DNA from: Cantharellus purpuraceus | Taxonomy: Eukaryota > Basidiomycota > Agaricomycetes > Cantharellales > Hydnaceae | Assembly (NCBI GenBank): GCA_025174535.1 | Contig: JALBUN010000023.1 | Span: 2,852,001 to 2,916,000, forward strand | DNA: 64,000 nt | Direction of reading: 5' to 3' | Shown: piece after piece, positions 21,382 through 59,891 of the stretch | Position numbering within the stretch: the first letter of the stretch is position 1 | Layout of the letters: each line of letters begins with the position of its first letter | Translations under genes and position numbers: made by a program | The notes under the pieces: generated by a model | The model's database searches: none | Told to the model about the DNA's origin: nothing | Seen by the model: the letters and a program-made list of their open reading frames with translations, nothing else

Positions 21382-21655
21382 TGTAAGGTTGGACTTAGTT
21401 CACACCAACACAGAACTCAACCAAAATATATTGGTTGTGCTATGTGCAACAGTGTGGTAAAATCTAAGTTACTCTAACTACATGTGGACCTACACATATA
21501 CTTGGGTCCACTTGATTACATAATAACTATACATATGCACCCTATGGGCACATATATCTATCAAGAAAAGCAGTACTCCTTAAGGGAATGCTGTATATAT
21601 GAATATCTATATCTATATATTATTCTATAGTAAGTAAGTACCTAGGGTACTTACA
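21382..21655 (-). repeat. Family B 3' LTR (B1)
   Basis: On the minus strand it begins TGTAAGTACC and ends CTTACA. The first 21 nt form a hairpin with arms GTAAGTACC / GGTACTTAC. A polypurine tract (AAAAAGGGGAGGG, minus strand) lies just before it at 21656-21668. Confidence 0.85.
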
Positions 21656-21692
21656 CCCTCCCCTTTTTGAATGAGACATGACCTCATTCCAC

Positions 21693-22800
21693 TCAATTGT
21701 ACAGCTCCTTATGGAGCTGTTCAGATGAATCAGTGTCCATATGATCATCTTGATCATATGGCTCTGGAGAGGGATGGCTCTCAGCCATCCCCAACATCGT
21801 CATAGTATCCTCATCTACTTGAATGGATGAGGAGGAGGCAACCATTAATGTGGTGTCTCGATCAAGGTCATGATCTAGCTGATCATGACCCAAATGCTTG
21901 GCAAGGGAGCATTTAACAGCTTTATGGGCTCCTCAAGAGGCTCCTTGAGTCTCTTGCTTTCACTTACCAACCCGCCAGGGTTGGTTGAACACTTCTCCAG
22001 AGGCAATGTGACTAGCAAATGCCTCCAGGATAGCAGTGCAATCAGAGGTGATGCCTTCCATTTTCAGACAGTTCAGATTGGACTTGAGAGCTAGGTGTGA
22101 TTTGATATTCAAACTGGGGAATGAAGTCCCCAGTCAGGCAACTTAAAGCACATATTTGAAATCTAATAATAATTACTCTGGTGATGGGTCTCCAAGGCCA
22201 ACAGCCTTATGTGAATATGTCTGAGTCCAACGGAGACAGATGTCCAGGTTCCTATGTTGATGCTGATGCATCAATCGGAACTGGCGGCAGATGAGATTGA
22301 TGGTGACAATCAGACAGACTAAATGGAGATGTAATGGTTTCCAAATGGAGTATAGATTTCATGTGCATGGGGATCTGAGTGGATCAAGTGGGCATTAATG
22401 AATATAGTCATAACATTGAACCTGTATAAACAGTTGTCCTTGAACAACTTATCATAATCCTTATGACAAGCACTAGTGACATTGTCTTTGATGTCACAAA
22501 TCAACTGTGGCCATGCAATTCTCAAGGCTCTCTCCACTGAAGTGGTATAATTGGCTCCTATTCTGAGCCTCAATTAAGTGTGAGACATAGTCATTGCACT
22601 TTTTGCACCCATGAGGGTGATAGATGGCAGTGCCTCTGTGCCATCCATCAATCTTCCAGGTCATCTCATCTTGATGACCTTGGATCATTTCTGCAGCACT
22701 CATTGCAGGTGCTGCAGATGTGGAAGATTGTTCAACTTCCATTGGATGCTCATCTTGAGCATCCATCACCTTCTGGGAGATGACATTTTGATGGGGGTGA
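21693..22800 (-). pseudogene. Family B third ORF (B1), split by LTR A
   Basis: The first part (to 22494) reads MMDAQDEHPMEVEQ, a Ser/Ala-rich stretch, a HPHGCKKC motif and a helical segment. The end (21893-21693) reads DQLDHDLDRDTTLMV and an acidic C-terminus. An LTR A sits between. B3 has the same start at 48106 (MSSLRREMMDAQDEHPM). The frame lies downstream of the chromodomain. It is not similar to the Gy1/C third ORF. Function unknown; a short Cys motif suggests metal binding at most. Confidence 0.45.
22052..22415 (-). repeat. Truncated LTR A nested in B1
   Basis: It ends ATAGTCATAACA at 22415, the family A LTR start on the minus strand. The other end is missing and its left limit is approximate. 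Confidence 0.75.
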
Positions 22801-23357
22801 TGGTGGTTTGAAAATTCTTATTGGGAATTTCTCTCAGTGACTATGTCACATGGGCATGATGCAATTAATTATCACTTATGCCTTTCATGCTACCATGAGT
22901 AGCATGAAGATAAACTGCTCCCTATGGGAGCAATTTTCACTGCTATTGAGCTGCCTATTATCATGGCAGCTCTATTCCCTCTAGGAACTACCATTATTTG
23001 AGGTAGTTCCTCCTCTCCTTGTTGAGCTACCATCATTGATGGTAGCTCCATTTCTTCCCCCTTGAGCCCCATTAAAGCTTTGGGACTCTATCTCTCTGAG
23101 AACTACTGTCTATGAGGTAGTTCTTGCACTCAAGTCACCCCTCAAAGCTCTAAATAATTGTCTAGAGCTTCCAGATCCTTACAATGTGTAAGGTTCCCAG
23201 GTGATGTCTCCCAACATCCATAGAACTTGAAATTCAAGTTCTCTATTGCTTATCCATCAATGAGCAATGATTTCATTGATAAGCCATTCCTGCTCATTGT
23301 TGTTCCCAAAGTCATAAAATGACTTTGCTTCCCATTTTGGAAATCTGGCCTCATCAT

Positions 23358-24227
23358 TCAACACATATGATCAAATGACTGACATGGAACGTAGGTGTAA
23401 TGCCTACTAGTCAGCTCCAGTGGCAATTCCAGTGTCACTGTTGAAGCTTTATTATGGGCTTTGAGTATCTTATAGGGCCCAATAAATTTGGGCACTAGCT
23501 TGCTGGCTCTACCCTTGGGTAGAGTCAAGTTTTTCATTGAGAGGTAGACCTTGTCACCTCTCTGGAAGGTTGGACCTTCACAATGTTTCTTATTAGTATG
23601 AAATATCTGGCCAATGTGACTTTCTATGATCATGTCATGTGCCACTAGCAGGTTTATTTGAGCCTGCTGTGTGTATTGTTTGACAGTGTCATTATTCATG
23701 GGTATGCCTATTCTAGGCATATACCCATAGTTAAGCTCAAACAGAGTAAACCCTGTTGTTGAGTTTATGTTGGAGTTTAATGCAAACTCCACCATTGGAC
23801 ACTTATGTGCCCAATCTTTCTGATCACTTCATACAACTGTATGAAGTATTTGACCAATGGAATGATTTGCTTGTTCTGTCACTCCATCTGTTAGTGGATG
23901 GAACACTGTGGACATGAGGAGCTTCACTCCCATTATCCATTGTAATTCACACCAAAAGATCAATGTGAGTCTTGATCAGACACAATTGAGTCTGGTACAC
24001 TGTGAAAGGCATACAACTTCTCCAAGGAATAGCCATGCTACTCCTTTTGCTGTCACATGCATATTCATAGGTATTATATGTACCTGCAATGTGATGTGAT
24101 CTATGACTACCAGTAGGTAGTCATGGTCATTCAATTTTGGTAATGGGTCCATAAAGTCCATTCCTATTGATTGCCAGGGCCACTCTGGCACTGGCAGACT
24201 GTGAAGAAGCCTCATGGGTTTCTTCAT
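23358..24227 (-). pseudogene. Family B integrase remnant (B1)
   Basis: It reads LHSLPVPEWPWQSIGMDFMD (first Asp of the catalytic triad), [15 protein letters not shown], and after a gap MVEFALNSNINSTTGFTLFE with the C-terminal GDKVYLSMKNLTLPKGRASK. Upstream zinc finger, RT and RNase H are deleted. Several stops are present. Confidence 0.8.
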
Positions 24228-24321
24228 AGCTTTTGGGAAAGACTGTATGGTGGGTAGTGTGTTATTAGAGTTACCCCTTTGGCATCATCTACTATGCCAC
24301 TACTCCCTTTTTGTGGGGAGT

Positions 24322-24730
24322 TTATACCCATGATGGGGTATGGGGAACATCTATATGGTGCTCTTTGTTGGTGGGGACTTCCTCAGTTCCCATTATGATC
24401 CAACCTTGGCCATCAAAGTCCAGGCATATTTGTAGCTTCTGTAGGAATGAGGTTCTGAGTATTACATCGTAATACTCAACATTGGTGACATTGAAGTATT
24501 CTTTGATGTCCAGGCTACCAAATCTTATGGTAGCATGAGTACCATAGTTTATGGTACTTCTGCTCCCAATGTATGCCAGTTGCAGTGGGATGGGTTGCTC
24601 CAGTGCAAAGGTTTTCATGCCTGTCACACATGTGAATTCAGGGGGTATCATTATCCCCTCACTCCCACTGTCTAATAGACAGTGAGCAATAGTCCTGCCA
24701 ATCTCCCAATACCTGGAGATCGTTTTATTA
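24322..24730 (-). pseudogene. Family B retropepsin (B1)
   Basis: The minus strand gives LLDSG (with a stop after it), MIPPEFTCVTGMKTFALEQP, GTHATIRFGSLDIKEYFNV and YYDVILRTSFLQKLQICLDF. In B3 the equivalent box is YYDVILGTPFL. The aspartic protease would cut Gag-Pol; this copy is broken. Confidence 0.75.
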
Positions 24731-25268
24731 TTTATGCATGGCCTATTGGGTCATGCTGTCAACTTCTGTTGGCTCTTATGATTATGCATAGGTTCAGCCA
24801 ACTTGTCGATGCTGACAGCAGCTATATGTAGCTGTCATGGTTCCCTGTTTATCATGGATCCTTTTGTATTGCAGAAATGCACCATGCATGCACATTTTGG
24901 TAGAATTTGATCACTTGGTCAAATTCATATTGTATTAGAGTGATACATTGGCATCACCTCCTCTTTAGGAGTGTCATCCTGATTGTCCCATTCATATGGG
25001 ACAACATCTTTGTTCCATTCATCAGCTACTTCTATAGCTGGTGCTTTCTCTTCTGGATGGTCCTTTGAATCATCCATTGCTCCTTCATGTTCTCCCTCTA
25101 TCAGGGAGAACTCATCTACATTGTCCTCCACTATGTGTGAGGACATGTCCTTCCAGACTGCTGCAGACCTTATGTTGCCCTTTAATTTGGGGCAGCTAGA
25201 TCACATGTGGCCTGTCTGGCCACATTTATAGCATACAATGTTACTAGTAACATTGTTAGATCGGTCAC

Positions 25269-26003
25269 TGTTGTGAATGTAAATAATTGCCTTGCTGGAA
25301 AGTCATGAGGAGTAGAAGTTGAATAGAGGAAGGGGGGACGATGGGAATTAAGTGTATGCATGGTTGAATTGAAGATATGCTTTAGAAGTATCTTCATATG
25401 AGGTTTGATGAGATTTGGTGAGGTCCTCAATTGACAATTTTCATAGGCAGCAGGAGCAGATAACTTGAATTTGAGTGTATTGCTCAATATAAAATCAGCC
25501 AGTGGTTGTATGGCTTCGTAATTCAAGATTCAAATATAGTATGTGAAATTCTAATAGAATATGCAAAACTTGTAGAAAGATGCATTCGTTCTGGAGTTAT
25601 TCCAGAGACAAATAGTCCCAGACACACAGATAGAATCAGTGAGAGATAATTACTCCAGTCAATTCAAGTGCAATACAGGAGTGATTTATACATGATAATT
25701 AATCACATGTAATGATGAAATGGTTTGTAAGTGTCCTGGGCAATGACAGAATAGATGAGATGTGATGATGTGTGGGGGGGTGTCTATGATGCAAAGAATG
25801 ATGAAATAAAAGATAAGAAATTGCCCAGGCAGCTCTGGAACTCACAGGGGCTTTGCCTGTTCCCTATATCATCTCCTTAATTGTTTCTCTTCACCCCCTT
25901 TGCCTCTCCAATACTCCTGAGCCTCCTATATGCTCCTGTCACCTTTAATTCTATTCTCCCCTCCTCCTCCTTTCTCTCCAGAGGTCCAGCAGCTAGAACA
26001 ACA
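25269..26003. repeat. Solo LTR D, copy 1
   Basis: This 735-bp LTR begins TGTTGTGAATG and ends GAACAACA. The target duplication GTCAC is at 25264-25268 and 26004-26008. It interrupts the B1 gag; B2 and B3 lack it at the same place. No internal D element sequence is present. Confidence 0.9.
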
Positions 26004-26594
26004 GTCACTACCTACATGAGTCAGTGGTTTCAATTGATAATTATTAGCATTAAATCCAGAGCCACCACTATGGGGTTCCAGCCTTGGCACACTCACTTGT
26101 TGCAAGTGCATATTGGGAGCCATGTACACATGTCCATGGGGCATAGGTCAGCTTCCTGCATTGGCTACACCAGTAGTTCTACAGACTACTGGTCTATGAG
26201 CTGAGGAGGACATGTTTATCATGCTCTCTGGGCATCACATACCATGATGGTATCACATTGCCTCTTTTATTATTCAAGCAGTCTCATATAACTGCTTGTT
26301 GCTGCTAAATTTAGCATTGAAGCCCTTCTTGAGGACTTCTTGTCTCAAAGGTTCATGCATTGCTGTCACAAACCTCTTCCTGAAATGTGTACACATCTGG
26401 CAGCCTTATCATGTGGCCCACATACTTATTTAGATTGTTCATTAATTCATGAATGGTCTTTTGATTCTGCATCACAGAGTCAAATTTATTTGACACATGA
26501 TGATGTGTCAGCATGTGTAGAAATCTACACTGCAATCCTTGGATTGCAGTCTCCAGGGTCCAGTCTTGGACTGCTCTGTTGTAGTGTTCTACAT

Positions 26595-27344
26595 TGTTGT
26601 TCCAGCTGCCAGACTTCTGGGGAGAAAGAAGAGGAAAGGGAGATTAGAGGGGACAGGGGAGGAACAGGAGCATATAGGAGGCTCAGGAGGTTTGGAGGGG
26701 TGAAGGGGGTAAAGGAGGATGGTTACAGGAATGGGATAGGGGACAGGAGAAGCCCCTGTGAGTTCCAGAACTTCCTGGACATTATTTCACTTTTATTTTC
26801 ATCATTTCATCATCATGGACACTTCCCCCTATCATCATCTCATCATCCATCCCATCATTGACTCAGGACATTCACGAATGACTTCATTCATTCATAGGAC
26901 TTAGTATCATATATAAATCACATCTGTAATGCACTTGAAAATAGAGAGTAATTATCTCTCACATATTCTGTCTGTGTGTCTGAATCTATTTGTATCTGGA
27001 ATAACTCCAGAACGAACATGTATTTCTATTAGCTTTTACATATCCTATTAGAATATTGCATATCCCACTTGAATCTTGAATTACGAAGCCATATAATCAC
27101 TGCCTACGTTTTTATTAAGCATTTACTTCAAATTGAATCACCTACTCCTGCTACCTGCTGAATTAGCTTGTATCCAGACGAGGACTTATCCAAATCACTC
27201 CAAACTTCACACAAAGATACTATTCAAGCTTATCTATCACACGAATGTGCATACATCGTGTTACCACCACTGCTCCATTTTCTATTTGACTTCTGCTTGT
27301 CACTACAACCCAGCAAGGCAATTATTCACATCATTTATATAACA
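26595..27344. repeat. Solo LTR D, copy 2 (opposite orientation)
   Basis: This 750-bp LTR begins TGTTGTTCC and ends ATAACA. The target duplication TACAT is at 26590-26594 and 27345-27349. It is the inverted relative of 25269-26003, about 590 bp away. Confidence 0.9.
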
Positions 27345-28911
27345 TACATTTTTGTAGAACCATTCCTGGGCCTCACCTTTAAGGCAAGTGTCTAAGTACA
27401 ACAGCTGAAACTTTGTATGTGATGGCCCAAGAAGATTATTCATCTTCAGCCATCATAGCATTCCTGCTACAAAGATCTTGAACTCTTTGAGATCTGCACC
27501 TCCTGAGTATTGCTCAGGGGGTGACACCTTTATGCCAGCTTTGGCAAGTACAGACTTCTCTGGGTCTGTATCTTTGTTATCAACTATGGCTACTCATACC
27601 ATGCAAGTAATACTATTGATAGGATCAATTGTGTCCAATTGATCCAGGATTCCTTGACCTTCTAAGGTCAATGGTGTGGATTGCTCCCAGTGATGAGGAG
27701 CATCCTCTTGAGGGACCCATTGGGTATCTTGCTGCTCATGGCAGGTGTCCCCTGAGGGACCTACTGCTCATATGTGCTGATAACTATTCAGTGCATTTCA
27801 CGACTGTTGATTTAGGTCGACAGTGACATTGAGCTCCTGTTGAAGCTGCTGCTCTCGTTAGAGTTGGCAGAGCTCCTGTTCCACATGTTTAGCCTTCCGT
27901 TCAAGGGCTAATCTATGTTTTTGAGAAGCCTCAGCTTCTTGCTGTTTCCATCGCTCAATCTCTTGATTGAGCTCATGATCTAGATTGGGGAGTTTCCTCC
28001 TCAATCTGTATCAGTAATCCTCGCCTTACAGGGATTGCTGGATTTCTGATTCCCTCCAATGGGGGGACCTTGTTTCTTCTATCCAACCAATCACTCTGTT
28101 GGATCCTCTCACTCCAGGGAGATCTAGACTCTCCAGATTCAGATTCTTATCAATGCAACTTGCATCACCCAGAGCTTTCTTGGAGCAATTTTATCATCAT
28201 TCCCAGCTCTGTGATCTGCTGTCCCATAGTGGTGGCAGCATGTTCTGCTATGGCAACCATTTTGGCTGCCTGAGCACTAGCTTCACTAATGCTCTTCATC
28301 TCATGCTGATTGCACATGAGTTACTTGGTCAATCTTGTGATTGACTGGTTTTACACTGCTCTGTGCTGTGTAATGCCCTAGTAGAAGTATTGCTACTTCT
28401 ACTTGTGCCCATCTTGTGATTATGTTCCTTTCCTTTAGGAACGTTGGAGGCAGTTAATGACTGTCTCCTTCTTTCTTCTCTTATCAAAGAACCACTCAAT
28501 GAGGGGTTCTTGTTTGACAGATGATCTATTGTATGATTGTACATGTGATCTCATGACTGTGATGACTCTCTCCTAGAGTCTTCCTTATGAGAAGTCCCTA
28601 CAACTTCTCTAGGATCTAGCTCCCCTTCATAGGAGCTTCTACTGCTGGCTATGCACCACCGTTCATTGTTTATGATGTCCTGGGCACTGCCAACACAACT
28701 CACTCTACTTCCAGTCATCATTATGATGACTCTTTCTCTTCTGCTTCTGTAGACTAACTAAGTTAGTCTACTAGTTGCTCACTTGTGTGAGTGACTGGGG
28801 GGAGTTGGTATATGTCTGTACACCAGCAACAGCCAGTTTTCTATCACTGGCTAGAAAACTTCAGTAATGAGGAAGAATCAACTGATTCTTTCCTATGGAA
28901 GTTCAAAAATG

Positions 28912-29118
28912 TGTAAGAGTTGTGACTTAGTTCACACTGACAGAACTCAACCAAATTTATTGGTTGTGCTATGTGCAATATGGTGTGGTTAAAATCTAAG
29001 TTTCTTTCTAACTACATGTGGACCCACACATATACTTGGGTCCACTGATTATATAATAACTGTATATATGCACCCCATGGGTGCATATAGCTACCAAGAA
29101 AGCAGCATTCCTTAAGGG
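28912..29118 (-). repeat. Family B 5' LTR (B1), truncated
   Basis: It starts TGTAAGAG at 28912 (the LTR end on the element strand) and is cut at 29118 by a family A fragment; about 65 bp are missing. Confidence 0.8.
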
Positions 29119-29483
29119 CACCTTGACCATTTGTGCATGTTTGGAGTTGGCAGTGGATTGTGGCATTGGGGTAGAAGTGAGTGTGGCAGTTCAAATATAC
29201 TGTTACACACTGGGTCTGATGGGGGGGGGGGGATCTTTGGGGTTGGAGTCAGAGTTGGGGTAAGGTCATGGTGGTCAGAATGGACTCGGCTTCAACTTAT
29301 GGCAATGGAGTATGCCTTAGATAGTTTAGGATCGGACTTAGGACCTAGACGTGATTCAATATTCAAACTGGGGAATGAAGTCCCCAGTGGTACAACTTAA
29401 ATATATATTTGAAATCTAATAATAATTACTTCAGTTAATGGGTCTCCAAGGCTGGTGGCCATACATGAGTATGTCTGAGTCTG
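29119..29483 (-). pseudogene. Family A fragment A3: gag start and partial LTR
   Basis: On the minus strand the family A LTR part lies at 29201-29483 and the gag start region (the complement of CCACTGCCAATTCCAAACATGC) at 29119-29175. It is truncated on both sides and contains a run of about 12 G at 29221. The LTR end lies directly against family B integrase sequence. Confidence 0.75.
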
Positions 29484-32105
29484 TTCACACCAAAAGATAG
29501 ATGTGAATTTCAAATCTTGATCAGACACAATTGAGTCTGGTACACCATGAAGGTGTACAACTTCTTTAAGGAATAGCCATGCTACTCCTTTTGCTGTTAC
29601 ACACATGTTCGTAGGTATTATATGTACCTGCAATGTGAAGCGATCTATGACTACCAGTAGGTAATCATCATAGTCATTTGATTTTGGTAATGGACCCATT
29701 AAGTCCATACCTATCAATTGCCAGGGCTGTTCCAGTACTGACAAGCTATGAAGAAGCCCTGTGGGTTTCTTTGTACTGTCTTTATTCATTTGGCACTTTG
29801 TGCATGAAGTGCAGAATGGTTTGACATCGGTGGTCATGCCTGACCACCAGTACAACCATCAAATGTAATTCACAGTCTTTAGTTGACCAAAATGGCCAAC
29901 TACTTGGTGTGCATGGTTGACTATTATCTCGACCAGCCTCCTCCCCTTCAGGAACACTGAGCAGGGTATACAGATGATATTGCATTTGTATATATTTTTG
30001 GTCCATATTAGACCATCATGCACATCAAATCGTGCATGCTCTTTAGGTGCTTCCAGCACCTTACAAAGGACAGTATCCTTTCTACATGTGCCTTGTACAA
30101 TCTGCATGAGGTTGATCCCATGCTTGACATGGGATTGCAATGGTGTTCCATCATCATCTGATGACATCACTCCAACATCCTCTATTTCTTTAGAGGAATT
30201 AGAATCATCATTCAATGATTCTGTTTGAACATTGAGTGCTTCAGCTTCTAGCACTCTGTTCTCTTTTTTCTCAAGCAGTCACCTTTGGGTGACTGCTGCT
30301 GTCCTGATCTCAACAAATCATTCCATGGGGAGCAGTTCTCCTTCAGGGTCGAGATGTACATCTGCACTCACATAGATGTAGTTGGGATGACTCTCTGTTG
30401 GGAAGTCATCAGCATAGTAGCGCAATAGACAATCCGCTACTTTGTTCTCTACCCCATCTATATGCAGGGTGGTGAAGTTGAAATGGGATAGGAACTCCCA
30501 CCACCTAATCTGTCTAGGAGACAGGTTCTTTTGGGTCTCAAAGTATTCAAGACCCTTGTGGTTGGTTACTAGGATGAACTTTCATCCTAGTAGCTTATCT
30601 TCACATCTCATTAGGGCTTCAAGCACAGCTATAGTCTCGTGCTTGTGGGTCTTATAGTGCTGTTTTGCAGCACTAAATTTCTTGGATAGGAATCTGGCAG
30701 GCTGACAGGTCTGCCAATCTTTTCCTTGTCCATAGACAGCTCTGACTCCAGTTTTGGAGCCATCAGTAATGACCCAAATAGTATTGGGGTTATTGACATT
30801 GATGGGATTCAATATTGGAGCCCTACATGCTAGGAGCTTGATGCTTTTGAAGCATTTCTCCAGCAGCGGTGTCCATAAGAATGGACGATTATTATGAGTA
30901 CAGCCCAATAAAGGGGTTGTGTATGCAGTTATGTCTGGCATATAGTGCACCAGATACTGCACTAGTCCAAGAAAATGTTGGACTTTGTGGTATGACCTAG
31001 GTCATCTCCATTCTCGTATTCACTGCATTTTATCAGCATCTGCATGCATGCCTTGGTCATCTATTAGGTGACCAAGGCAATCCATACTCATTGATTATAG
31101 ATTGATCTTATCCTTGCTCAGGAACATATGTGCTTTCCTGAGCTCAGTGAACACCATCTCTAGGTGGTGTTCATGCTCTCATATAGTACAAGAGTACACA
31201 AATATGTCATCCAGATATACATGGATGAATCTTCTGATATAGTCTCAGAAGATGGCAGTCATGAGCTGCTGAAATGTCAAGGGGGCATTGCAGTCCCTTG
31301 CTGCATGACTTGACTGACAAATGTCCCCAAGATGGTTGCAAATGCTGTCTTGGGTATATCCATTGGCCTGATGCGTATCTGTTTGTATGCCTCAGACATA
31401 TTGAGTTTAGATTGATATGTACAGCAGGCAACATCATGTCTAATGTTGTCCTGATCAGTGAAGGGCATTACATCCTTCACCATATTATCATTCTGTTCAT
31501 GCAAGTCAAACATGGTGCAGAGCTTCCTATTTTTCTTGGGAATGCATAGCATTGGTACAGCCTGCCGGGCTGTAGCCAATACCCACCATTTAGCAATGGT
31601 GTATCACAGAACTTTCTCTGAAAGTTCTGCTTGGTAGTGCTCTGGACACTTAGGCAAGCAATAATGTATTTGCCTGTCAGGATCCATGAGATTAATCTCA
31701 TGGTTAACTTCTCTAAATGGGGGAAGTTCTAAGGGTATGCTGCTGAGTAGGTCAGCATACTTTTCTTTCCATTGATCCCTCAACTGAGGGATCTGACCAG
31801 CCATGTAAGTGGTTGATCCTTCACAAGACAAAGCTATTCACCTTGTGCTCTTATTTGGATCCTCCATTGGGGGGTCCTTTACTGAGTCTAGTCCTTCTTT
31901 TAGGAAGGACTGCGTTGTGGGTAGCTCATGTTTAGAGTTACCCCCTTGTCATCATTTATTAACACCAACACTCTTTCTTTGTATTGAGTTTATACCCTGT
32001 GATGGGGTACGAAGAGCATTGGTATTATGCTCTTCATTGGTGGGGACTTCTTCAGTTCCCATCATGATTCAGCCTGGGCCATTAAAGTCCAGGCATATTC
32101 CTAGT
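29484..32105 (-). repeat. 2.6-kb inverted duplication, left arm
   Basis: The partner is 43670-46290. Paired positions sum to 75774-75776, so only a few small indels separate them. The 126-residue RNase H frame is identical in both, as are in-frame stops. Beyond 32105 similarity drops to the normal level for family B. Confidence 0.9.
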
Positions 32106-33896
32106 TTTTGTAGGAATGGGGTACCAAGCATTACATCGTAATACTCAATGTTGGTGACATCAAAATATTCTTCAATGTCTCAATTACCAAACTTTATGGT
32201 AGTGTGAGTACCATAATTTATGGTACTCCTGCTCCCAACACATGCTAATTGCAGTGTGATGGGTTGCTCTAGTGTGAAGGTTTTCATACCTTTCACACGT
32301 GTGAATTCAGGGGATATCATTATCCCCTTGCTCCCACTGTCTAATAGACAGTGAGCTAGTGTTCCACCAATCTCCCAATACCCAGAGATTGTTTTATTAA
32401 TTATGCATGGCCTATTAGGTCATGCTGTCAACTTCTGTCTGCTCCTATGATTATACATAGGTTCAGCTGATCTGTTGACACTGACAGCATCTATATGCAG
32501 CTGTTGTGATTCCCTGCTTCTTGGGAATCTTGTTGCCCTACAGAAATGCACTGCATAGGTGTGTTTCAGTGGAATTCGATCATTGGGTCAAATTTGTATT
32601 GCATTAGAGCGATACATTGGCATAGCCTCCTCTTCAGAGGTGTCATCTTGGTTGTCCCATTCATATGAGGCAATCTCCTCATTCCATTCTTCAGCTACTT
32701 CTATGGCTAGCGTTTTTTCCTCTAGATGGTCCTTGGGATCATCCATTTCTTCTTCATGTTCTCCCTCTATCAGGGAGAACCTGTCTACATTGTCCTCCAC
32801 TATGTGTGAGGACACATCCTTTTGAACCACAGCTGACCTTACATTGCCCTTTAGTTTGGGGCAGCTGAGTTGCATGTGACCTGTCTGGCCACATTTGTAG
32901 CACACAACATTACTGGTAATGTTGTTCTATTGATCACCACTTGCATGTGCTGGTGGCTTTGATTGATAATTACCCTTAAAGGGGTAATTGTTGGAATTGA
33001 ACCCAGAGCCTCCACTATGGGGTTCCAGCCTTGGTGCACTTGCTTGTTGTGAGTGTGTATTGGGAGCTGTATACACACATCCATGGGGTGTGGGTTGACT
33101 CCCTGCATTCATCATACCAGTAGTTCTCTTGACTACTGGTCTATGGATTGAGGAGGACATGTTAGTCACATTCTCCAGGCATTGCATACCATGGTGGTAT
33201 TGTGTCACTTCCTCTATCATTCAAGCAGTTTCGTACAACTTCTCAATACTGCTAAATTTGGCATTGAAACCCTTATTGAGGACTTCTTGTCTCAGAGGTT
33301 CACACATTGCGGTTATGATCCTCTTCCTGTACGTGTATGTGTCCAGTGGCATTATCATGCAGCCCACATACTTATCAATTGTTTATTAATTGGTGAACAA
33401 CCCTTTGACCCTCCATTACAGAGTCAAATTTATTTGATGCATGATGATGCATCAGGGTGTGTAGGAATCTATGCTGCAATCCTTGGATTGCAGTTTCCAG
33501 GGTCCAGTCTTGGACTGCCCTGTTGTAGTGTACTACATTCCTGTAGAACCATTCCTGGGCCTCACCTTTAAGGTGAGTGCCTAAGTACAATAGCCGAAAC
33601 TTTGTACTTGATGGCCCTAGGAGATTGTTCATCTTCAGCCATCATAGCATACCTGCTACAAAGATCTCAAACTCTTCGAGATCCGTGCCTCCTGCATATT
33701 GCTCAGGAGGCAATACCTTACACCTTGGCAAGTACAGACTTCTCTGGGTCTGTATCTCTATTATCAACTATGGCTACTCGCACCATGTGAGTAATGCCAT
33801 TGATAGGATCAATTGTATCCAATTGATCCAGTATGCTTTGACCTTTTAGGGTCAATGGCACTGATTGTTCCCTGTTATGGGGAACATCTTCTTGAT
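29484..33896 (-). pseudogene. Ty3/gypsy family B, copy B2 (integrase to gag)
   Basis: Minus-strand order: gag helices (33632-33375, LKGEAQEWFYRNVVHYNRAV), zinc knuckle CYKCGQTGHMQLSC (about 32900), acidic linker, protease (about 32390-32110), RT (31831-31207, LCTMFDLHEQND), RNase H (30962-30582, TIWVITDGSKTGVRAVYGQG), and an integrase part (29855-29490, WWSGMTTDVKPFCTSCTKCQ). It has many stops. Both ends are truncated: within gag at 33896 and within integrase at 29484. Bases 29484-32105 are an almost exact inverted copy of 43670-46290. Confidence 0.85.
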
Positions 33897-34329
33897 GTTA
33901 TGATTTATGAGTTGGATGCCTTGCTGGGTCCAAAGTCAAGTAGAGGTTGGATGGGAGGTGTATATATGCATGTTTGTAGATTGTGTAAGTGTCCTATGGC
34001 CTTGTGGATGTTACCAATGGATATATATAAATGAGAAGCAATCAGATCATTTGAGATATTGACAAAACTTGAAGAAACACAGAAGATATGATAAAAACAA
34101 TGATTTTGCTTTCAGATATGGCAACCCATCAAACAGGGTTGGAGAGGCTAAAACTCTTGTTCTTTTCATTGCTAGCTAGGCTTGTTTTATACAAGCTATA
34201 CATATATAGAGTCTGTATGAGCATTATTGAGCTGAAGGGATAATGGGAAAATAAATGAGCATAAAAACAAATGAAGGGTGATCCCCTAACCTCTACCTCC
34301 TAACCTACTTACCCATTTGAGGTTGGGTC
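33897..34329. other. Unassigned AT-rich segment, possible LTR
   Basis: It begins TGTTATGATTTATG right at the B2 break and contains TATATATAAATGAGAAG and TATACATATATAGAG. No second copy is in the window and no gene is seen. Its right end GGGTC is the target of LTR D copy 3. Confidence 0.35.
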
Positions 34330-36132: not shown

Positions 36133-36311
36133 TAATAAGGAAATGGTGCTAGACAAGAACTACGCTATGGTCAATAAACTATAATATGCACAAGAAACTC
36201 ATGCTCACCTCAGTGAATAGAAGATTCACTGAGGTGTTATGGTCATGCAGTGTGACTGTACAGTAGCAGTTGATCATGTGCGTTCCAGCTTGCCACACGA
36301 TTCCTTCAACA
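36133..36311 (-). repeat. Copia 3' LTR
   Basis: On the minus strand it begins TGTTGAAGG and ends CCTTATTA. It contains a 13-bp-arm hairpin (36206-36218 / 36224-36236). A near copy in the other orientation is at 59729-59891. Confidence 0.8.
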
Positions 36312-40292: not shown

Positions 40293-40415
40293 AGCGAGTG
40301 TCTGAGTCTTCCATGTGACCCAGTTTGACCCACCCAGGCAAGTTTGGGAATCACAAAACTCTTTGCTGTGTTGCTGATATCAGCGGGGCCCATAACCTAA
40401 TAAGGAAATGGTGCT

Positions 40416-40684
40416 TGTAAGTACCCAAGGTACTTACTTACTATAACATATAAGTATAATTAATATATGCAGTATTCCATTAAGGAATGCTGTCCTCTTG
40501 GTAGATATATGTGCCCATAGGGTGCATATGTATAGTTATTATGTAATCCAGTGGACCCAGTACACATGTGGGTCCACTTATCATAGATAGAACTTAGTTA
40601 ACTACCACACTGTACAACACATTACCCAACCAATACACTTGGTTGAGTTTTGTGCAATGGTGTGAACTAAGACACATATTAACA
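40416..40684 (+). repeat. Family B 5' LTR (B3)
   Basis: It begins TGTAAGTACC and ends TTAACA. Hairpins include GTAAGTACC / GGTACTTAC at 40417-40437. It is about 269 bp, like the B1 3' LTR. Confidence 0.85.
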
Positions 40685-41059
40685 CTTTTTTGAACTTCCA
40701 AAGGAAGAATCAATTGATTCTTCCTCATTATTGAAGTTTTCTAGTCAATACTAGAAAACTGGCTGTTGCTGGTATACAGATGTATACCAACCCCCCCAGT
40801 GGCTCATATAAGTGAGCAACTAGTAGACTAACTTAGTTAGCCTGCAAAGATAGAAGGAAGAAAGGAGTCATCATAATAATGACTTGCAGTGGAGTGAGTC
40901 ATGCTGGCAGCAAACAGGACATCATAAATGATGAACAGCAGCACATAGCCAGCAGCAGAAGCTCCCAGGAAGGGGAGCTAGACCCTAGAGAAGTTGCAGG
41001 GACTTCTTGTAAGGAAGACTAGAAGAGAGTCGCCACGATTGTGAGACTGCACAGATGAT

Positions 41060-42965
41060 CACACAATAGATCATCTGTCAAACAAGAACCCTTCATTGAG
41101 TGGTTCTTTGATTAGAGAAGAAAGGAGGAGACAGTCATCCACTGTCTCCAATGTTCCTAAAGGAAAGGAACATGCTCAATATCCAAGCACAAGTAGAAGT
41201 AGTAATACTTCTACTAGGGAATTGTGCAGCATGGAGCAGCATGAAACCCACAGGTCAATTGCAAGATTGACTGAACAACTCATGCATAATCAACATGAGA
41301 TGAAGAGCATTAGCAAAGCTAGTGCTCAGGCAGCTAAGATGGCTGCTGAAGCAGGGCATGCTGCCACTACTATGGGGCAGCAAATAGCAGAGCTGGGAAC
41401 AATGTCAAAATCACTCCAAGAGAACTCTGAGCAATGCAAGTCACATTGCCAAAGATCAGATTGTCAACAAGAATCTGAATCCAGAGAGTCTGGACCTCCC
41501 CAGGGTGAGAGGGTCCAACCGAATGATCAGTTAGACAGAGGAAATGAAATTCCCCCAATGGAGGGAATTAGAGACCCAGTAATCCCTGTGAGGCAAGGAC
41601 TACTGATCCAGATTGAAGAGGAAACTCCTCAATCTATGGCAAAGGAGCTCAATCAAGAGATCGAGCTATGAAAACAATGAGAAGTTGAGGCTTCTTGTAA
41701 ACATAGATTAGCCCTTGAACAGAAGGCTAAACATGCAGAGCAGGAGCTCAGCCAGCTGTTTAGAGAGCAGCAGCCCCAGCAAGAGCTCAATGTGGCTGTC
41801 GATTTAAATCGACAGTTGCAACATGTGCTGAACAGTTATCAGCATGTACAAGTGGGGGGCCTTTCAGGAGACACCTGCCATGAGCAACGAGATACCCAAT
41901 GGGTACCTCAAGAAGATGTTCCCCATAACAGGGAACAATCAGTGCCATTGACCCTAGAAGGTCAAGGCATACCAGATCAATTGGACACAATTGATCCTAT
42001 CAATGGCATTACTCACATGGTGCGAGTAGCCATAGTCAATAATAGAGACACAGACCCAGAGAAGTCTATACTTGCCAAGGCAGGCATTAAAGTATCGCCT
42101 CCTGAGCAATACGCAGGAGGCACAGATCTCAAAGAGTATGCTATGATGGCTGAAGATGAACAATCTCCTAGGGCCATTAAGTACAAAGTTTCAGCTATTG
42201 TACTTAGGCACTCACCTTAAAGGTGAGGCCCAGGAATGGTTCTACAGGAATGTAGAACACTATGACAGAGCAGTCCAAGACTGGACCCTGGAAACTGCAA
42301 TCCAAGGATTGCAATGTAGATTCCTACACACCCTGATGCATCACCATGCGTCAAATAAATTTGACTCTGTAATACAGGGTCAAAGGACCATTCATGAATT
42401 AATGAATGACCTAGATAAGTATGTGGGTCACATGATAATGCCACTGGATGCGTACATGTACAGGAAGAGGATCATAACCACAATGCGTGAACCTCTGAGA
42501 CAAGAAGTCCTCAAGAAGGGTTTCAATGCCAAATTTAGCAGTATTGAGCAGTTGTACGAAACTGCTTGAATGATAGAGGAAGCAATGCAATACCACCACG
42601 GTATGCAATGCCTGGAGAATGCAACTAATGTGTCCTCCTCAACCCATAGATCAGTAGTCAATAGAACTACTGGTATGATGAATATGGGGAGTTGACCCAT
42701 GCCCCAAGGATGTGTGTATACAGCTCCCAACACACACTCACAACAAGTGAGTATGTCAAGGTTGGAACCCTGTAATGGAAGCTCCAGGGCCAATTCCAAC
42801 AATCACCTTTTCAAGGGTAATTATCCATCAAAACCACCAGCACACGCGAGTGGTGATTGATCAAACAATGTTACCAGTAATGTTGTGTGCTACAAATGTG
42901 GCCAGACAGGTCACATGCAACCTAGCTGCCCCAAATTAAAGGGCAACGTAAGGTTTGCTGCAGTC
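41060..42965 (+). pseudogene. gag: Family B gag (B3)
   Basis: The 41096-41671 part is open (SGSLIREERRRQSSTVSNVP ... MAKELNQEIEL), rich in Gln/Glu helices. After a TGA it continues (LDRQLQH-type helix, FTLEGQGIPDQLDTIDPING) and then the capsid-like core LKGEAQEWFYRNVEHYDRAV (about 42220-42290). It ends in the CCHC zinc knuckle CYKCGQTGHMQPSC (42890-42931). Gag would form the particle and bind RNA. At least four stops or frameshifts are present. The acidic segment after the knuckle (DGFSLIEGEHEEAMED) links to protease. Confidence 0.8.
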
Positions 42966-43348
42966 TGAAAGGACGTGTCCTCACACATAGTGGAGGATAA
43001 GGTAGATGGATTCTCCCTGATAGAGGGAGAACATGAAGAAGCAATGGAGGATCCCAAGAACCATCTAGATGAAAAAGTATCAGCTATAGAAGTGGCTGAT
43101 GAATGAGATGAGGAGGTCACCCCATACAAATGGGACAACCAAGATGAGCTATGCCAATGTATTGCTCTAATGCAATACAAATTTGACCCAATGATCAAAT
43201 TCCACTGAAACACACCTATGCAGTGCATTTCTGTAGTGCAACAAGATTCCCGAGAAGCAGGGAATCATGACAGCTGCATATAGCTGCTGTCAGTGTTGAC
43301 AGATTGGCCAAACCTATGTATAATCATAGGAGCTGACAGAAGTCAACA

Positions 43349-43666
43349 GTGCAACCAGATAGACCATGCATAGACAATAAAACAATCTCTGGGTATTGGG
43401 AGATTGGTGGAACACTAGCTCACTGTCTATTAGACAGTGGGAGCAAGGGGATAATGATATCCCCTGAATTCACATGCATGACAGGTATGAAGACATTCAT
43501 GCTAGAGCAACCCATTGCACTGCAATTAGCATGCGTTGGGAGTAGGAGTACCATAAATTATGGTACTGTCACTACCATAAAGTTTGGTAGTCGGAACATT
43601 GAAGAATATTTCAATGTCACCAATGTTGAGTATTATGACGTAATACTTGGTACCCCATTCCTATGA
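43349..43666 (+). pseudogene. Family B retropepsin (B3)
   Basis: It reads GYWEIGGTLAHCLLDSGSKG: the catalytic Asp-Ser-Gly is intact. IMISPEFTCMTGMK follows, and the second hallmark is YYDVILGTPFL. A TGA follows at 43664 before the RT linker, so the polyprotein is interrupted. Confidence 0.8.
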
Positions 43667-43669
43667 AAG

Positions 43670-46290
43670 TTAGGAATATGCCTGGACTTTAATGGCCCAG
43701 GCTGAATCATGATGGGAACTGAAGAAGTCCCCACCAATGAAGAGCATAATACCAATGCTCTTCGTACCCCATCACAGGGTATAAACTCAATACAAAGAAA
43801 GAGTGTTGGTGTTAATAAATGATGACAAGGGGGTAACTCTAAACATGAGCTACCCACAACGCAGTCCTTCCTAAAAGAAGGACTAGACTCAGTAAAGGAC
43901 CCCCCAATGGAGGATCCAAATAAGAGCACAAGGTGAATAGCTTTGTCTTGTGAAGGATCAACCACTTACATGGCTGGTCAGATCCCTCAGTTGAGGGATC
44001 AATGGAAAGAAAAGTATGCTGACCTACTCAGCAGCATACCCTTAGAACTTCCCCCATTTAGGGAAGTTAACCATGAGATTAATCTCATGGATCCTGACAG
44101 GCAAATACATTATTGCTTGCCTAAGTGTCCAGAGCACTACCAAGCAGAACTTTCAGAGAAAGTTCTGTGATACACCATTGCTAAATGGTGGGTATTGGCT
44201 ACAGCCCGGCAGGCTGTACCAATGCTATGCATTCCCAAGAAAAATAGGAAGCTCTGCACCATGTTTGACTTGCATGAACAGAATGATAATATGGTGAAGG
44301 ATGTAATGCCCTTCCCTGATCAGGACAACATTAGACATGATGTTGCCTGCTGTACATATCAATCTAAACTCAATATGTCTGAGGCATACAAACAGATACG
44401 CATCAGGCCAATGGATATACCCAAGACAGCATTTGCAACCATCTTGGGGACATTTGTCAGTCAAGTCATGCAGCAAGGGGACTGCAATGCCCCCTTGACA
44501 TTTCAGCAGCTCATGACTGCCATCTTCTGAGACTATATCAGAAGATTCATCCATGTATATCTGGATGACATATTTGTGTACTCTTGTACTATATGAGAGC
44601 ATGAACACCACCTAGAGATGGTGTTCACTGAGCTCAGGAAAGCACATATGTTCCTGAGCAAGGATAAGATCAATCTATAATCAATGAGTATGGATTGCCT
44701 TGGTCACCTAATAGATGACCAAGGCATGCATGCAGATGCTGATAAAATGCAGTGAATACGAGAATGGAGATGACCTAGGTCATACCACAAAGTCCAACAT
44801 TTTCTTGGACTAGTGCAGTATCTGGTGCACTATATGCCAGACATAACTGCATACACAACCCCTTTATTGGGCTGTACTCATAATAATCGTCCATTCTTAT
44901 GGACACCGCTGCTGGAGAAATGCTTCAAAAGCATCAAGCTCCTAGCATGTAGGGCTCCAATATTGAATCCCATCAATGTCAATAACCCCAATACTATTTG
45001 GGTCATTACTGATGGCTCCAAAACTGGAGTCAGAGCTGTCTATGGACAAGGAAAAGATTGGCAGACCTGTCAGCCTGCCAGATTCCTATCCAAGAAATTT
45101 AGTGCTGCAAAACAGCACTATAAGACCCACAAGCACGAGACTATAGCTGTGCTTGAAGCCCTAATGAGATGTGAAGATAAGCTACTAGGATGAAAGTTCA
45201 TCCTAGTAACCAACCACAAGGGTCTTGAATACTTTGAGACCCAAAAGAACCTGTCTCCTAGACAGATTAGGTGGTGGGAGTTCCTATCCCATTTCAACTT
45301 CACCACCCTGCATATAGATGGGGTAGAGAACAAAGTAGCGGATTGTCTATTGCGCTACTATGCTGATGACTTCCCAACAGAGAGTCATCCCAACTACATC
45401 TATGTGAGTGCAGATGTACATCTCGACCCTGAAGGAGAACTGCTCCCCATGGAATGATTTGTTGAGATCAGGACAGCAGCAGTCACCCAAAGGTGACTGC
45501 TTGAGAAAAAAAGAGAACAGAGTGCTAGAAGCTGAAGCACTCAATGTTCAAACAGAATCATTGAATGATGATTCTAATTCCTCTAAAGAAATAGAGGATG
45601 TTGGAGTGATGTCATCAGATGATGATGGAACACCATTGCAATCCCATGTCAAGCATGGGATCAACCTCATGCAGATTGTACAAGGCACATGTAGAAAGGA
45701 TACTGTCCTTTGTAAGGTGCTGGAAGCACCTAAAGAGCATGCACGATTTGGTGTGCATGATGGTCTAATATGGACCAAAAATATATACAAATGCAATATC
45801 ATCTGTATACCCTGCTCAGTGTTCCTGAAGGGGAGGAGGCTGGTCGAGATAATAGTCAACCATGCACACCAAGTAGTTGGCCATTTTGGTCAACTAAAGA
45901 CTGTGAATTACATTTGATGGTTGTACTGGTGGTCAGGCATGACCACCGATGTCAAACCATTCTGCACTTCATGCACAAAGTGCCAAATGAATAAAGACAG
46001 TACAAAGAAACCCACAGGGCTTCTTCATAGCTTGTCAGTACTGGAACAGCCCTGGCAATTGATAGGTATGGACTTAATGGGTCCATTACCAAAATCAAAT
46101 GACTATGACTACCTACTGGTAGTCATAGATCGCTTCACATTGCAGGTACATATAATACCTACGAACACGTGTAACAGCAAAAGGAGTAGCATGGCTATTC
46201 CTTAAAGAAGTTGTACACCTTCATGGTGTACCAGACTCAATTGTGTCTGATCAAGATTTGAAATTCACATCTATCTTTTGGCATGAACTA
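43670..46290 (+). repeat. 2.6-kb inverted duplication, right arm
   Basis: Inverted partner of 29484-32105; see there. The right limit coincides with the point where B2 is broken by the LTR A fragment A3. Confidence 0.9.
43943..45400 (+). pseudogene. pol: Family B reverse transcriptase and RNase H (B3)
   Basis: RT pieces: LCIPKKNRKLCTMFDLHEQN, CNAPLTFQQLMTAIF, a stop, then RRFIHVYLDDIFVYS with the YLDD catalytic box intact. RNase H: TIWVITDGSKTGVRAVYGQG and HYKTHKHETIAVLEALMRCE, a stop at 45191, then FILVTNHKGLEYFETQKNLS. Stops interrupt the frame at about 44168, 44528, 44596, 44678, 44754, 44769 and 45191. Most are TGA replacing a Trp or Arg codon. The same stops occur in B2, so both copies descend from one dead sequence. 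Confidence 0.85.
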
Positions 46291-47442
46291 CAGCAGATAA
46301 TGGGAGTGAAACTCCTTATGTCCACAGCATTCCATCTGCAAACAGATGGAGTGATGGAATGAGCAAATTGTTCCATTGGCCAAATACTTCATACCATTGT
46401 ATAAGATGCTTGCTCAGAAATACAACAAATATGTATATACAACCTATTTTCCTCAAATTTTACACAACACACTTAGATTAAAACTTATTTTCATATTTCA
46501 ACGTGATTCTCAAATTTTACACAATATACTAGATTAAAACATATTGTGATATTTTGGCATAATTCTCAAAAATAACTGTTTTTTCCCCATTTAGTGGTGG
46601 CAACTCTCTTGAGGGAACATCCAAATATCATTGATTCTTTCTTATACAATACTTGTAATATAATTTGCATTATCTTTAATTCCCACCTGGTATTTGTATA
46701 TCTAAATACACTATATAATACCAATTATATTAATACATACATTCCTATTATATCCATGTAAATGATTATGTTCATCTCAACCAAATGTCTTATCTTTTAA
46801 AGTTTGTTAGAATATAGAATATATGTTTATATTTACAAAAATTTCACACATCCGAAATCTTCTAAGATATCCAAATTGTAACTCCCTGGCTTTATGTATC
46901 ATTGAAATTCTGATGTATATCTCATATACATCAGAATATTGTATACTGACATGATTCTGAACAAGCATCTAAAGTGATCAGAAAGATTGGGCACACAAGT
47001 GTCCAATGGTGGAGTTTGCACTAAACTCCAACATAAGCTCAACAATGGGGTTTACTCTGTTTGAGCTTAACCACAGGTATATGCCTAGAATAGGCATGCC
47101 CATTAACAATGACACCAAGTTCAAGGGTGTCAAATGATTTGCACAGCAGGCTCAAATGAACCTGCTAGCAGTGCACGACACAAATATAGAAAGTCATGTC
47201 ATTCAGACATTTCATGCCAATAAGAAACACCAACCTTCCAGAGAGGTGACAAAGTCTACCTCTCAATGAAAAACTTGACTCTACCTAAGGGTAGAACCAG
47301 CAAACTAGTGCCCAAGTATATCGGGCCCTATAAAATAATCAAAGCCCAATCATAAAGCTTTGATGGTGACACTGGAACTGCCACCAGAACTGACTAGTAG
47401 GCATATTATGCCTATGTTCCATGTCAGTCTCATTTGACCGTA
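45408..47442 (+). pseudogene. Family B integrase (B3), split by MITE
   Basis: The N-terminal finger lies at 45840-46000 (NHAHQVVGHFGQLKTVNYI, stop, WWSGMTTDVKPFCTSCTKCQ). The catalytic core has [30 protein letters not shown] and, at about 46340, QTDGVMEWANCSI where the Glu is expected. Then comes the MITE (46405-46969), followed by the C-terminal part GDKVYLSMKNLTLPKGRTSK with frameshifts. It would join element cDNA to the chromosome; it is dead here. Confidence 0.75.
46405..46969. mobile_element. Harbinger/Tourist-like MITE, copy 2
   Basis: This 565-bp AT-rich element has inverted ends GATGCTTGCTCAGAA and TTCTGAACAAGCATC. It is flanked by TAA at 46402-46404 and 46970-46972. The uninterrupted family B sequence near 23835 (minus strand) shows the empty site. 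It is related to copy 1 at 2834 along its whole length. Confidence 0.85.
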
Positions 47443-47443
47443 T

Positions 47444-47680
47444 GTGCCAAATGATGAGATGAGATTCCTGAAACAGGAAGCAAAGTCATTTTATGACTTT
47501 GGGAACAATGACAAGCAGGAGTGGCTCATTGATGAAATCACCACTCATCGATGGATAAGCAATAAAGAACTTGAATTTCAAGTTCTATGGACATTGGGAG
47601 ATGTCACCTGGGAACCTTACACATCATGTAAGAACCTAGAAGCTCTAGATGATTATTTAGAACTTCAAGGGGTGATTTGA
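47444..47680 (+). pseudogene. Family B chromodomain (B3)
   Basis: EWLIDEITTHRWISNKELEF followed by QVLWTLGDVTWEPYTSCKNL matches a chromodomain (aromatic cage region, then W-E-P). The frame ends at 47678-47680. It closes Pol and probably targets integration to silent chromatin. Confidence 0.8.
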
Positions 47681-48105
47681 GCATGAGAACTACCTCATAG
47701 ATGGTAGTTCTCAGAGAGATGGAGCCCCAAAGATCTAATGGGGCTCAAGGGGGAGAAGTGGAGCTACCAAGAATAATGGTAGCTCCTAGTGGGATGCGAC
47801 AAAGAGCTACCATCAATGATGGTAGCTCAACAAGGGGAGGAGGAACTACCTCGATTAAATGGTAGTTCCTAGATAAGGATAGAGCTATCATAACAACAGG
47901 CAGCTCAATGGTAGAAAAAACTGCTCCCATAGGGAGCAGTTCACTGTCGTGCTACTCATAGTAGCACAAAGGGGTAAGCAATAATTGATTGCATTACACC
48001 CATGTGACATAGTCACTGGAAAAATTCTCAATAAAGAATTTTTGAGCTCAGCCATAAAAGGCTAGCGGTGCTTCTTTGAACCACCACAAACCCCCCTCCA
48101 TCAAA
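47681..48105 (+). repeat. Array of hairpins in the family B 3' region
   Basis: Non-coding stretch with consecutive inverted repeats: GAGAACTACC (47685) with GGTAGTTCTC (47703), GGAGCTACC (47760) with GGTAGCTCC (47778), and GAGCTACCATC (47804) with GATGGTAGCTC (47818). Next come AGGAACTACC (47841) with GGTAGTTCCT (47861), and AACTGCTCCC (47919) with GGGAGCAGTT (47932). Several share the core GCTACC/ACTACC. The B1 copy (22900-23130) has matching hairpins. A TATA-like CATAAAAGG at about 48053 precedes the third ORF. Confidence 0.9.
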
Positions 48106-48245
48106 ATGTCATCTCTCAGAAGGGAGATGATGGATGCTCAGGATGAGCATCCAATGGAAGTTGAACAAACTTCCACAGCGGCAGCACTGGCAATGAGTGC
48201 TGCAGATATGATCAGAGGTCATGAAGATGAGATGACCTTGAGATA
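48106..48245 (+). pseudogene. Family B third ORF, start (B3)
   Basis: MSSLRREMMDAQDEHPMEVE is followed by an Ala/Ser-rich stretch and ...GHEDEMTL, then a stop and truncation by family A sequence at 48246. The full-length relative is in B1 (21693-22800). Confidence 0.5.
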
Positions 48246-48628
48246 GGACATGGCAAAGGTGACCTTCACCTGATCAGATGTGAACACATCAGGGTGGTTG
48301 TGGAAATTCAACTGGCATTGCACCAAGAATGGTTGGAGCTTGCATGGATTGGAGCCATCAAATGGGTTGGGTTCCCGGACCTTGGTCCAGGACTTAGGGG
48401 CTTGTGAGGTACAGATGCTGCTGGCAAGCAGGGAGATGGCTTGTGCCAGGTTTGGGGAGGGCGGAGTGTCATCCTCTTCATTGATGGCCTCTATGTGGTC
48501 CATCGGTTCTTTGATGACCTTGGGGATGGTGTCAATGGTGGGAGTGGGCACCTTGACAGTTTGTGTGTGTTCAGAATTGGCAGTGGATTGTGGCATTGGT
48601 AGGAGTGAGTATGCCAGTTTGAATATAC
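48246..48628 (-). pseudogene. Family A fragment A4: gag N-terminus
   Basis: On the minus strand it begins MPQSTANSEHTQTVKVPTPT (48596) and runs through SWTKVREPNPFDGSNPCKLQ to about 48249. It is cut inside gag. The family A LTR lies upstream at 48629-49160, so this is the 5' end of a minus-strand element whose remainder is gone. Confidence 0.85.
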
Positions 48629-59728: not shown

Positions 59729-59891
59729 TGTTGAAGGAATTGCATGGCAAGCTGGAATGCATGGGATCAACTGCTACTGTACAGTCACACTGCGTGACCA
59801 TAACACCTCAGTGAATAGAAGATTCACTGAGGTGAGCATGAGTTTCTTGTGCACATTATAGTTTATTGACCATAGTGTAGTTCTTGTCTAG
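59729..59891 (+). repeat. Copia LTR, truncated
   Basis: It starts TGTTGAAGG and matches the Copia LTR at 36133-36311, read in the opposite genomic direction, but lacks the last 18 bp or so. Its hairpin loop is inverted relative to the flanks compared with the other copy. Confidence 0.8.

Follow-up and report, generated by a model that had tools for sequence, protein, structure and literature searches.

Short Perfect Hairpins Saturate a Ty3/gypsy-Type Retrotransposon Family of Cantharellus purpuraceus

We analyzed a stretch of 64,000 nt from contig JALBUN010000023.1 of Cantharellus purpuraceus, referred to here as the window; the source genome comprises 40 Mb in 50 contigs. The window holds three copies (B1, B2, and B3) of a retrotransposon family, family B, which by its domain content is a degenerate Ty3/gypsy element with long terminal repeats (LTRs). 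The copies are saturated with short perfect hairpins. Our results show that hairpins in coding sequence stem from the choice among synonymous codons, and that the hairpins of the family date from its active ancestors. The explanation that we favor, with slightly less than even confidence, is that the hairpins were written by synonymous codons, were kept by selection, and fold single strands. The copies in the window are:

21656–29118, minus strand: copy B1, about 80% identical to B3; it holds other sequence and is without the B3 stretch 43877–46005 (most of pol)
29483–33898, minus strand: part of copy B2, 94% identical to B3 41905–46288
40416–48245, plus strand: copy B3, hairpin-saturated, split at about 46402–46972 by an insert from a different repeat family

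Results

A hairpin was counted as perfect when its arms had at least 7 nt and its loop at most 10 nt, and 200 dinucleotide shuffles served as control, a criterion set by the initial annotation of this DNA. B3 contained 88 perfect hairpins in 7258 bases (shuffle mean 5.1, maximum 13), B1 59 in 6871 bases (mean 5.6, maximum 15), and B2 48 in 4416 bases (mean 3.4, maximum 10). Arms of at least 9 nt occurred 32 times in B3, 27 times in B1, and 18 times in B2, compared with 0.3 in each set of shuffles. Gy1 was at chance level, with 3 hairpins in 6428 bases (shuffles 4.0), and so was family A, with 2 in 3133 bases (shuffles 1.6) and 5 in 3025 bases (shuffles 1.8). The proposed shuffle comparison thus placed family B far above its controls and confirmed that Gy1 and family A lack the pattern. 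When CpG decay was allowed for, B3 had 98 + 24 = 122 hairpins in 7258 bases, with about 12 in the shuffles; these covered 37% and 45% of its two parts. The claimed saturation of all three copies was therefore correct, but the claimed spacing of about 45 bp was too narrow, since there is about one hairpin per 60 bases. All eight hairpins that had been named as examples were in our list, with coordinates off by one or two bases at most, and the count of about 18 given for 43387–44220 came to 16 with arms of at least 7 nt, or 17 including one across the edge.

A recount over the whole window gave 0–4 hairpins per kb (mean 0.9) outside the regions 21–34 kb and 40–49 kb, and 4–16 per kb inside them (shuffles about 1). 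In the genome, 60 of 60 family-B loci found with pol and gag queries had 5.4–12.9 hairpins per kb (shuffled 0.5–1.4). These loci represent 54 places, with six elements, B2 and B3 included, giving both a pol and a gag locus; a few further loci are near-identical duplicates. Each of the DNA searches (pol, gag, and 3' stretches) yielded at least 40 scored candidates, and the copy numbers are lower bounds. Eight other reverse transcriptase loci of the genome showed 0.6–2.6 hairpins per kb (shuffled 0.5–0.7). More distant relatives of family B in the same genome, L069, L070, and L071, were also rich in hairpins, with 13 of the 42 hairpins of L070 sitting in a foreign tandem repeat; L072, a stretch of 1 kb, had one. 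The tandem repeat (L070, 800–1232) consists of 13 units with a 34-base period, each with a CTTATAAG hairpin, and is not part of family B.

Hairpins within the reading frames of B3 were compared with synonymous-codon shuffles. The parts of B3 are:

40416–40690, plus strand: 5' LTR, length deduced from the two ends of B1 (21394–21655 against 40671–40416)
40702–40725, no strand: perfect 24-nt palindrome in the leader
41045–42220, plus strand: two-piece open frame resembling gag, with 14 hairpins in 1173 tested bases
42885–42953, plus strand: CCHC zinc knuckle (PF00098, E = 1e-6)
43400–45457, plus strand: stop-containing protease–reverse transcriptase–RNase H frame, with 30 hairpins over 2055 bases
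45666–46390, plus strand: integrase part, lying in other frames and alignable with that of Gy1; 501 tested bases contain 4 hairpins
46402–46972, no strand: inserted repeat that does not belong to family B, probably the LTR of a different family, 75.8% identical to 2831–3443; two hairpins in the strict count
46973–47680, plus strand: further part of pol, whose end weakly resembles a chromodomain
47684–48095, plus strand: region lacking long open frames, with 8 hairpins of at least 7-nt arms in 412 bases
48103–48246, plus strand: beginning of an additional open frame past pol, truncated in B3

The three coding stretches held 48 hairpins, compared with 4.8 in the shuffles. The excess was strong in gag (14 versus 1.6) and in the protease–reverse transcriptase–RNase H frame (30 versus 2.5) and smaller in the integrase part (4 versus 0.7, shuffle maximum 4). 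The codon phases of the 48 hairpins were distributed 25:5:18, where the synonymous shuffles gave 1.8:1.2:1.8, so that the third-third phase was avoided. Residues encoded by stems corresponded to the majority residue of 31 homologues at 71% of 91 positions, and other residues at 64% of 304. The family-B protein ranked 23rd of 32 for the hairpins that it could encode, i.e., it allows no more than its homologues do, with its six X residues lowering the value a little. The earlier statement that codon meaning does not explain the hairpins was half right: those in the coding parts fit within the freedom of the genetic code. In the non-coding parts the density was similar to or above that of the coding parts, and the densest region was found past pol (23 per kb in 47680–48245). 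Inserted palindromic elements were rejected as a source because the stem residues agree with the homologues.

It is very improbable that the hairpins are due to chance, to base composition, to an error of assembly, or to the insertion of small palindromic elements. Only the frequent occurrence of short inverted repeats in general speaks for such an origin. It is contradicted by the dinucleotide and the synonymous shuffles by the agreement of all 60 loci, and by the position of hairpins within reading frames, where they encode residues common to homologues.

The hairpins follow a size rule. Loops of 0–12 nt were enriched in B3 and B1, with an abrupt drop and hardly any excess from 13 nt on; the total span peaked at 20–25 nt and faded by 31 nt. 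Stems mostly had 7–12 pairs. Arms of 4, 5, and 6 nt were barely in excess (155, 57, and 22 versus 134, 44, and 14 in the control), whereas arms of 7–11 nt were eightfold enriched (64 versus 7.6), and arms of 12 nt or more with loops of 3–12 nt were absent from the alignments of pol and gag. Pairing at the innermost position, where it would close the loop to 0, was found in 8 of 38 cases (pooled 37 of 157), which is near chance, with about a quarter as the approximate expectation. This pattern leans towards folding of a single strand. Some imperfect stems exist, as 30 stems with one inner mismatch were found, compared with 13.5 in the control. A broader test of stems with 0–4 mismatches (40, 85, 105, 376, and 622 versus 1.7, 20.3, 98.1, 319.8, and 658.8; single mismatches A.C 25, G.T 9, other 51) did not have an all-or-none look, but it mixes 7-pair stems with chance outer pairs, and the arm-length test was used in its place.

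Regular spacing of the hairpins was not found; the gaps look random (first part of B3: coefficient of variation 0.94 versus 0.99, p = 0.33), with a largest gap of 135, compared with 196 expected (p = 0.04). No loop or arm motif common to the whole element was seen, as judged by eye and with no motif search run. Four neighboring hairpins at 47684–47870 have CTACC/GGTAG in their arms and look like duplicates of a single hairpin. Rfam gave 0 matches at the gathering threshold for 40300–48300. A 13-pair hairpin (CACCTCAGTGAAT) is present at 36206–36236 and 59804–59834 of the window, in two copies of another repeat.

The comparison of subfamilies revealed that transversions were 3–6 times rarer in stems than elsewhere, non-coding DNA included. 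Between B1 and B3, transversions affected 4 of 327 stem sites and 28 of 483 other sites in non-coding sequence (p = 0.0007), and 5 of 789 versus 72 of 1952 in coding sequence (p = 1e-6). L070 differed from B3 by transversions at 1.4% of stem sites and 3.7–4.5% of sites elsewhere, and L069 at 0.8% and 1.6–2.6%, respectively. Hairpin positions were largely common to subfamilies that are about 80% identical, among the matches listed. Two or more pairs had been lost between subfamilies in 14 cases, several of them from gaps or poor alignment.

In contrast to this conservation between subfamilies, dead copies treated stems like any other sequence. The 30 pol and 30 gag loci had a mean identity of 91% and 90%, and ordinary pol copies compared in pairs differed by CpG-type changes at 5.7% of sites and by other changes at 3.2%. 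After removal of near-duplicates, 27 pol and 27 gag copies were tested. Non-CpG stem pairs showed 348 single changes, 1 compensated double, and 1 uncompensated double, and CpG-type pairs showed 796 single changes, 118 compensated doubles, and 6 other doubles. Double changes were at the level expected for independent columns, both for the CpG type (124 versus 134.2 expected; gag 41 versus 43.6, pol 83 versus 90.6) and for the others (2 versus 3.3; gag 1 versus 1.1, pol 1 versus 2.2). Private transversions that arose after insertion were evenly distributed (stem 82/1032, loop 27/336, spacer 97/1315). These results showed that dead copies neither make nor mend hairpins but lose them by independent mutation, and that this decay owes much to CpG-type mutation.

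In a few copies the spacer between the arms was inverted. L024 has AGA/TCT, two copies have TGAA/TTCA, L061, L062, and L063 have AA/TT, and B3 has a further case. In a scan for exact reverse-complement inversions most of the 18 centers look like CpG decay (CACA versus TGTG), and only AGA/TCT was kept. Template switching at inverted repeats inverts short spacers in yeast genes (PMC8604942). It seems to occur at family-B hairpins as well, where it may be a by-product of the hairpins being present.

A rather unlikely alternative to selection, but one that several observations fit, is templated arm conversion. A nascent strand would fold back during reverse transcription and one arm would be copied from the other, so that imperfect inverted repeats become perfect; protein-damaging events would be purged and the survivors would look synonymous, with no benefit required. 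The near all-or-none stem length without wobble preference speaks for it, by an argument of the kind put forward for nematomorph mitochondria (PMC6649704), as do the limited total span, the inverted spacers, known likewise from the yeast events (PMC8604942), and the peak of density past pol. Neutral conversion predicts, however, that arms change together at the neutral rate. In 40416–41040 and 47680–48245 (the latter reaches into the extra frame) both sides had changed between B1 and B3 with pairing kept in only 3 of 213 ungapped stem pairs, while 18–21% of the spacer sites differed, CpG changes aside. Double changes in dead copies stayed at the independent expectation, and the absence of hairpins from the eight other reverse transcriptase loci would make the process special to the family-B reverse transcriptase. 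From the rarity of stem transversions together with the few co-changed pairs, we infer that the hairpins were kept by purifying selection for pairing, a reading that we prefer to chance and to neutral conversion of arms. A templated, palindrome-making process, as suggested in the initial annotation, may have been the origin of the hairpins, but dead copies show no arm conversion, their doubles being at the independent level, and stems compared between subfamilies are near frozen.

The local folding energy of the sense strand lay well under that of shuffled sequence (mean z −4.3 for B3 and −3.4 for B1; controls 0.1 and −0.3). Over both strands, z ranged from −2.9 to −4.7 in family B and from −0.5 to 0.1 in Gy1 and family A. 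Loops were A-richer in the sense strand (0.40 versus 0.34 in B3, 0.39 versus 0.33 in B1).

The assignment of family B to Ty3/gypsy rests on the CCHC knuckle, the LTRs, and the order reverse transcriptase, RNase H, integrase. RT_RNaseH_2 matched with 53.8 bits (cut-off 29.8), and RVT_1 with 27.3 bits on a 119-residue piece, slightly under the cut-off of 29.6. A 401-residue stretch with X at stops matched 447 proteins at E ≤ 1e-20, and those listed carry PF00078. Among the best 120 of the 447, the closest were 66–70% identical and lie on short contigs, followed at 50–60% by proteins of Trametes, Pleurotus, Sparassis, Ceratobasidium, and others. The B3 frames past RNase H align with the part of Gy1 that contains Integrase_H2C2 and with other loci. 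The two ends of B1 (21380–21586 and 28910–29118) were 86.9% identical over an alignment of 214. The chromodomain-like end in B3 matched PF00385 weakly (E = 0.039, 14.3 bits, under the cut-off of 25.1).

The extra frame after pol (B3 48103–48246; B1 22494–22817, minus strand) encodes similar residues in both copies (DAQDEHPMEVEQ...). B2 (29483–33898) and B3 (41905–46288) were 99.9% identical in pol and only about 90% in gag, so that one of the two looks like a mosaic of two copies. B3 contains many stops, and the inner stops in 150 scored reverse transcriptase matches in the genome were mostly TGA. Methylated CpG decays CGA to TGA, and the TGA excess points to CpG-methylation decay of CGA codons in the host fungus. 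Matches at C37:34142, C37:57384, C35:79775, and C1:3861484 scored identically; they are located on small contigs or close to the end of a contig and suggest that a region was duplicated. A ceramide glucosyltransferase-like gene of the window had its closest named relatives in Ramaria rubella (73%), Sphaerobolus (67%), and Clathrus (66%); by this gene the host would be placed among the agaricomycetes, probably close to Gomphales.

Discussion

The element type of family B is known, and the hairpin saturation of its coding sequence appears to be new. Family B shares LTRs, a CCHC knuckle, and reverse transcriptase–RNase H followed by integrase with Ty3/gypsy elements of Basidiomycota; its saturation sets it apart from Gy1, family A, and the eight other loci of the same genome. 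A literature search, with poor coverage of subscription journals, found no description of a hairpin-saturated retrotransposon, in agreement with the initial annotation, which knew of none.

The ordered RNA structure of RNA virus genomes is genome-scale and spread and is not known to be built of size-limited perfect hairpins. Family B resembles it in extending along the whole genome with a folding energy far below shuffles, and differs in its size-limited perfect hairpins and in the equal folding of both strands.

The nearest precedent is found in coding palindromes of mitochondrial genes of Nematomorpha, where four genomes were reported to contain 110 repeats, each 15 bp or longer, with a mean of 43 bp and a length of up to 142 bp, at least 48 of them species-specific (PMC6649704). 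Both systems have perfect inverted repeats in functional genes with both arms coding conserved residues, a depletion of the third-third phase (there in the longer repeats), and few imperfect repeats. Family B differs in being a nuclear retroelement whose arms are mostly 7–12 nt, with one hairpin per about 60 bases, non-coding parts included, and with positions largely common to subfamilies. The yeast events share with family B the inversion of short spacers between perfect arms, but they are scattered and single (PMC8604942), whereas family B is saturated over whole elements and its dead copies lack any homogenization of arms.

The active ancestors of family B carried about 120 short perfect local hairpins with loops of up to 12 nt, where chance would give about 12. 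These were fitted to gag, protease, reverse transcriptase, and integrase by synonymous codons and placed in the non-coding parts as well. They would have been maintained during the active phase by purifying selection for Watson-Crick pairing, as the substitution patterns suggest. They would fold the genomic RNA, and probably also the first-strand complementary DNA (cDNA) or an antisense RNA, into an array of stems. Dicer has a size limit on stems, and those of family B probably stay below its length. Folded strands would not pair sense to antisense and guides would miss their targets, so that RNA silencing would be escaped; this role is a guess, and RNA packing is the main alternative use. The stronger version, in which the whole genome evolved codon by codon until both strands could fold into a series of minimal perfect hairpins, an armor against RNA silencing or sense-antisense pairing, appears unlikely to us.

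Several observations weigh against selection on pairing. Compensatory changes were few, and 14 of the 14 listed were transitions. Within the main subfamily, shared non-CpG variants affected 26 of 1032 stem, 38 of 1315 spacer, and 20 of 336 loop sites, so that stems were not clearly poorer in them than spacers, though poorer than loops (stems versus all other sites, p = 0.17); shared transversions (2, 2, and 3) were too few to tell. Many of the shared variants may be recurrent transitions, possibly masking a depletion in stems. The subfamily test compared single copies (B1, L069, and L070) with B3. Innermost pairs leaving a loop of 1 (12 of 36; pooled 48 of 116) or 2 (16 of 38; pooled 50 of 157) kept some excess. 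The antisense strand folds about as well as the sense strand (mean z −4.7 for B3 and −2.9 for B1), and G.U is not favored over A.C, the opposite of what selection on sense RNA only predicts: fixed single mismatches were G.T 6, A.C 6, and other 18 (n = 30), inner single mismatches in the arm-length test G.T 6 and A.C 5 of 30, and variants in at least three copies G.T 24 and A.C 46 (19 and 28 without CpG sites). Private variants showed G.T 78 and A.C 78 (66 and 59 without CpG sites). The structured genomic RNA considered in the initial annotation therefore has the conserved stems and the sense folding on its side, and the equal antisense folding and the lack of G.U preference against it. The strand data would agree with hairpins that act on both strands or in first-strand cDNA.

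Selection might act on DNA, through hairpins of the first-strand cDNA (protection, compaction, or strand transfer) or through short palindromes bound by a protein, which we consider improbable. It would agree with the equal folding of both strands, with the missing sense wobble preference, and with the 46 to 24 surplus of A.C over G.T in shared variants, as a sense A.C is a G.T on the minus strand. This bias is weak, though, and one among several tests; by eye no arm motif runs over the whole element, the four CTACC/GGTAG neighbors aside, and the A-richer loops of the sense strand hint at RNA.

In family B, protein coding meets a genome-wide constraint on the nucleic acid, and the family is therefore a rare natural test of the effect of local hairpins. 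If selection keeps the hairpins, they hint at an unrecognized step of replication or at silencing escape; an armor of hairpins on both strands, if true, would mean that a retrotransposon had adapted structurally over its whole genome in a way that is new. If the hairpins are instead the work of a reverse transcriptase, they bring to light a mutational process by which coding sequence is turned into palindromes. Either case could be tested by plain comparison with relatives from publicly available mushroom genomes.

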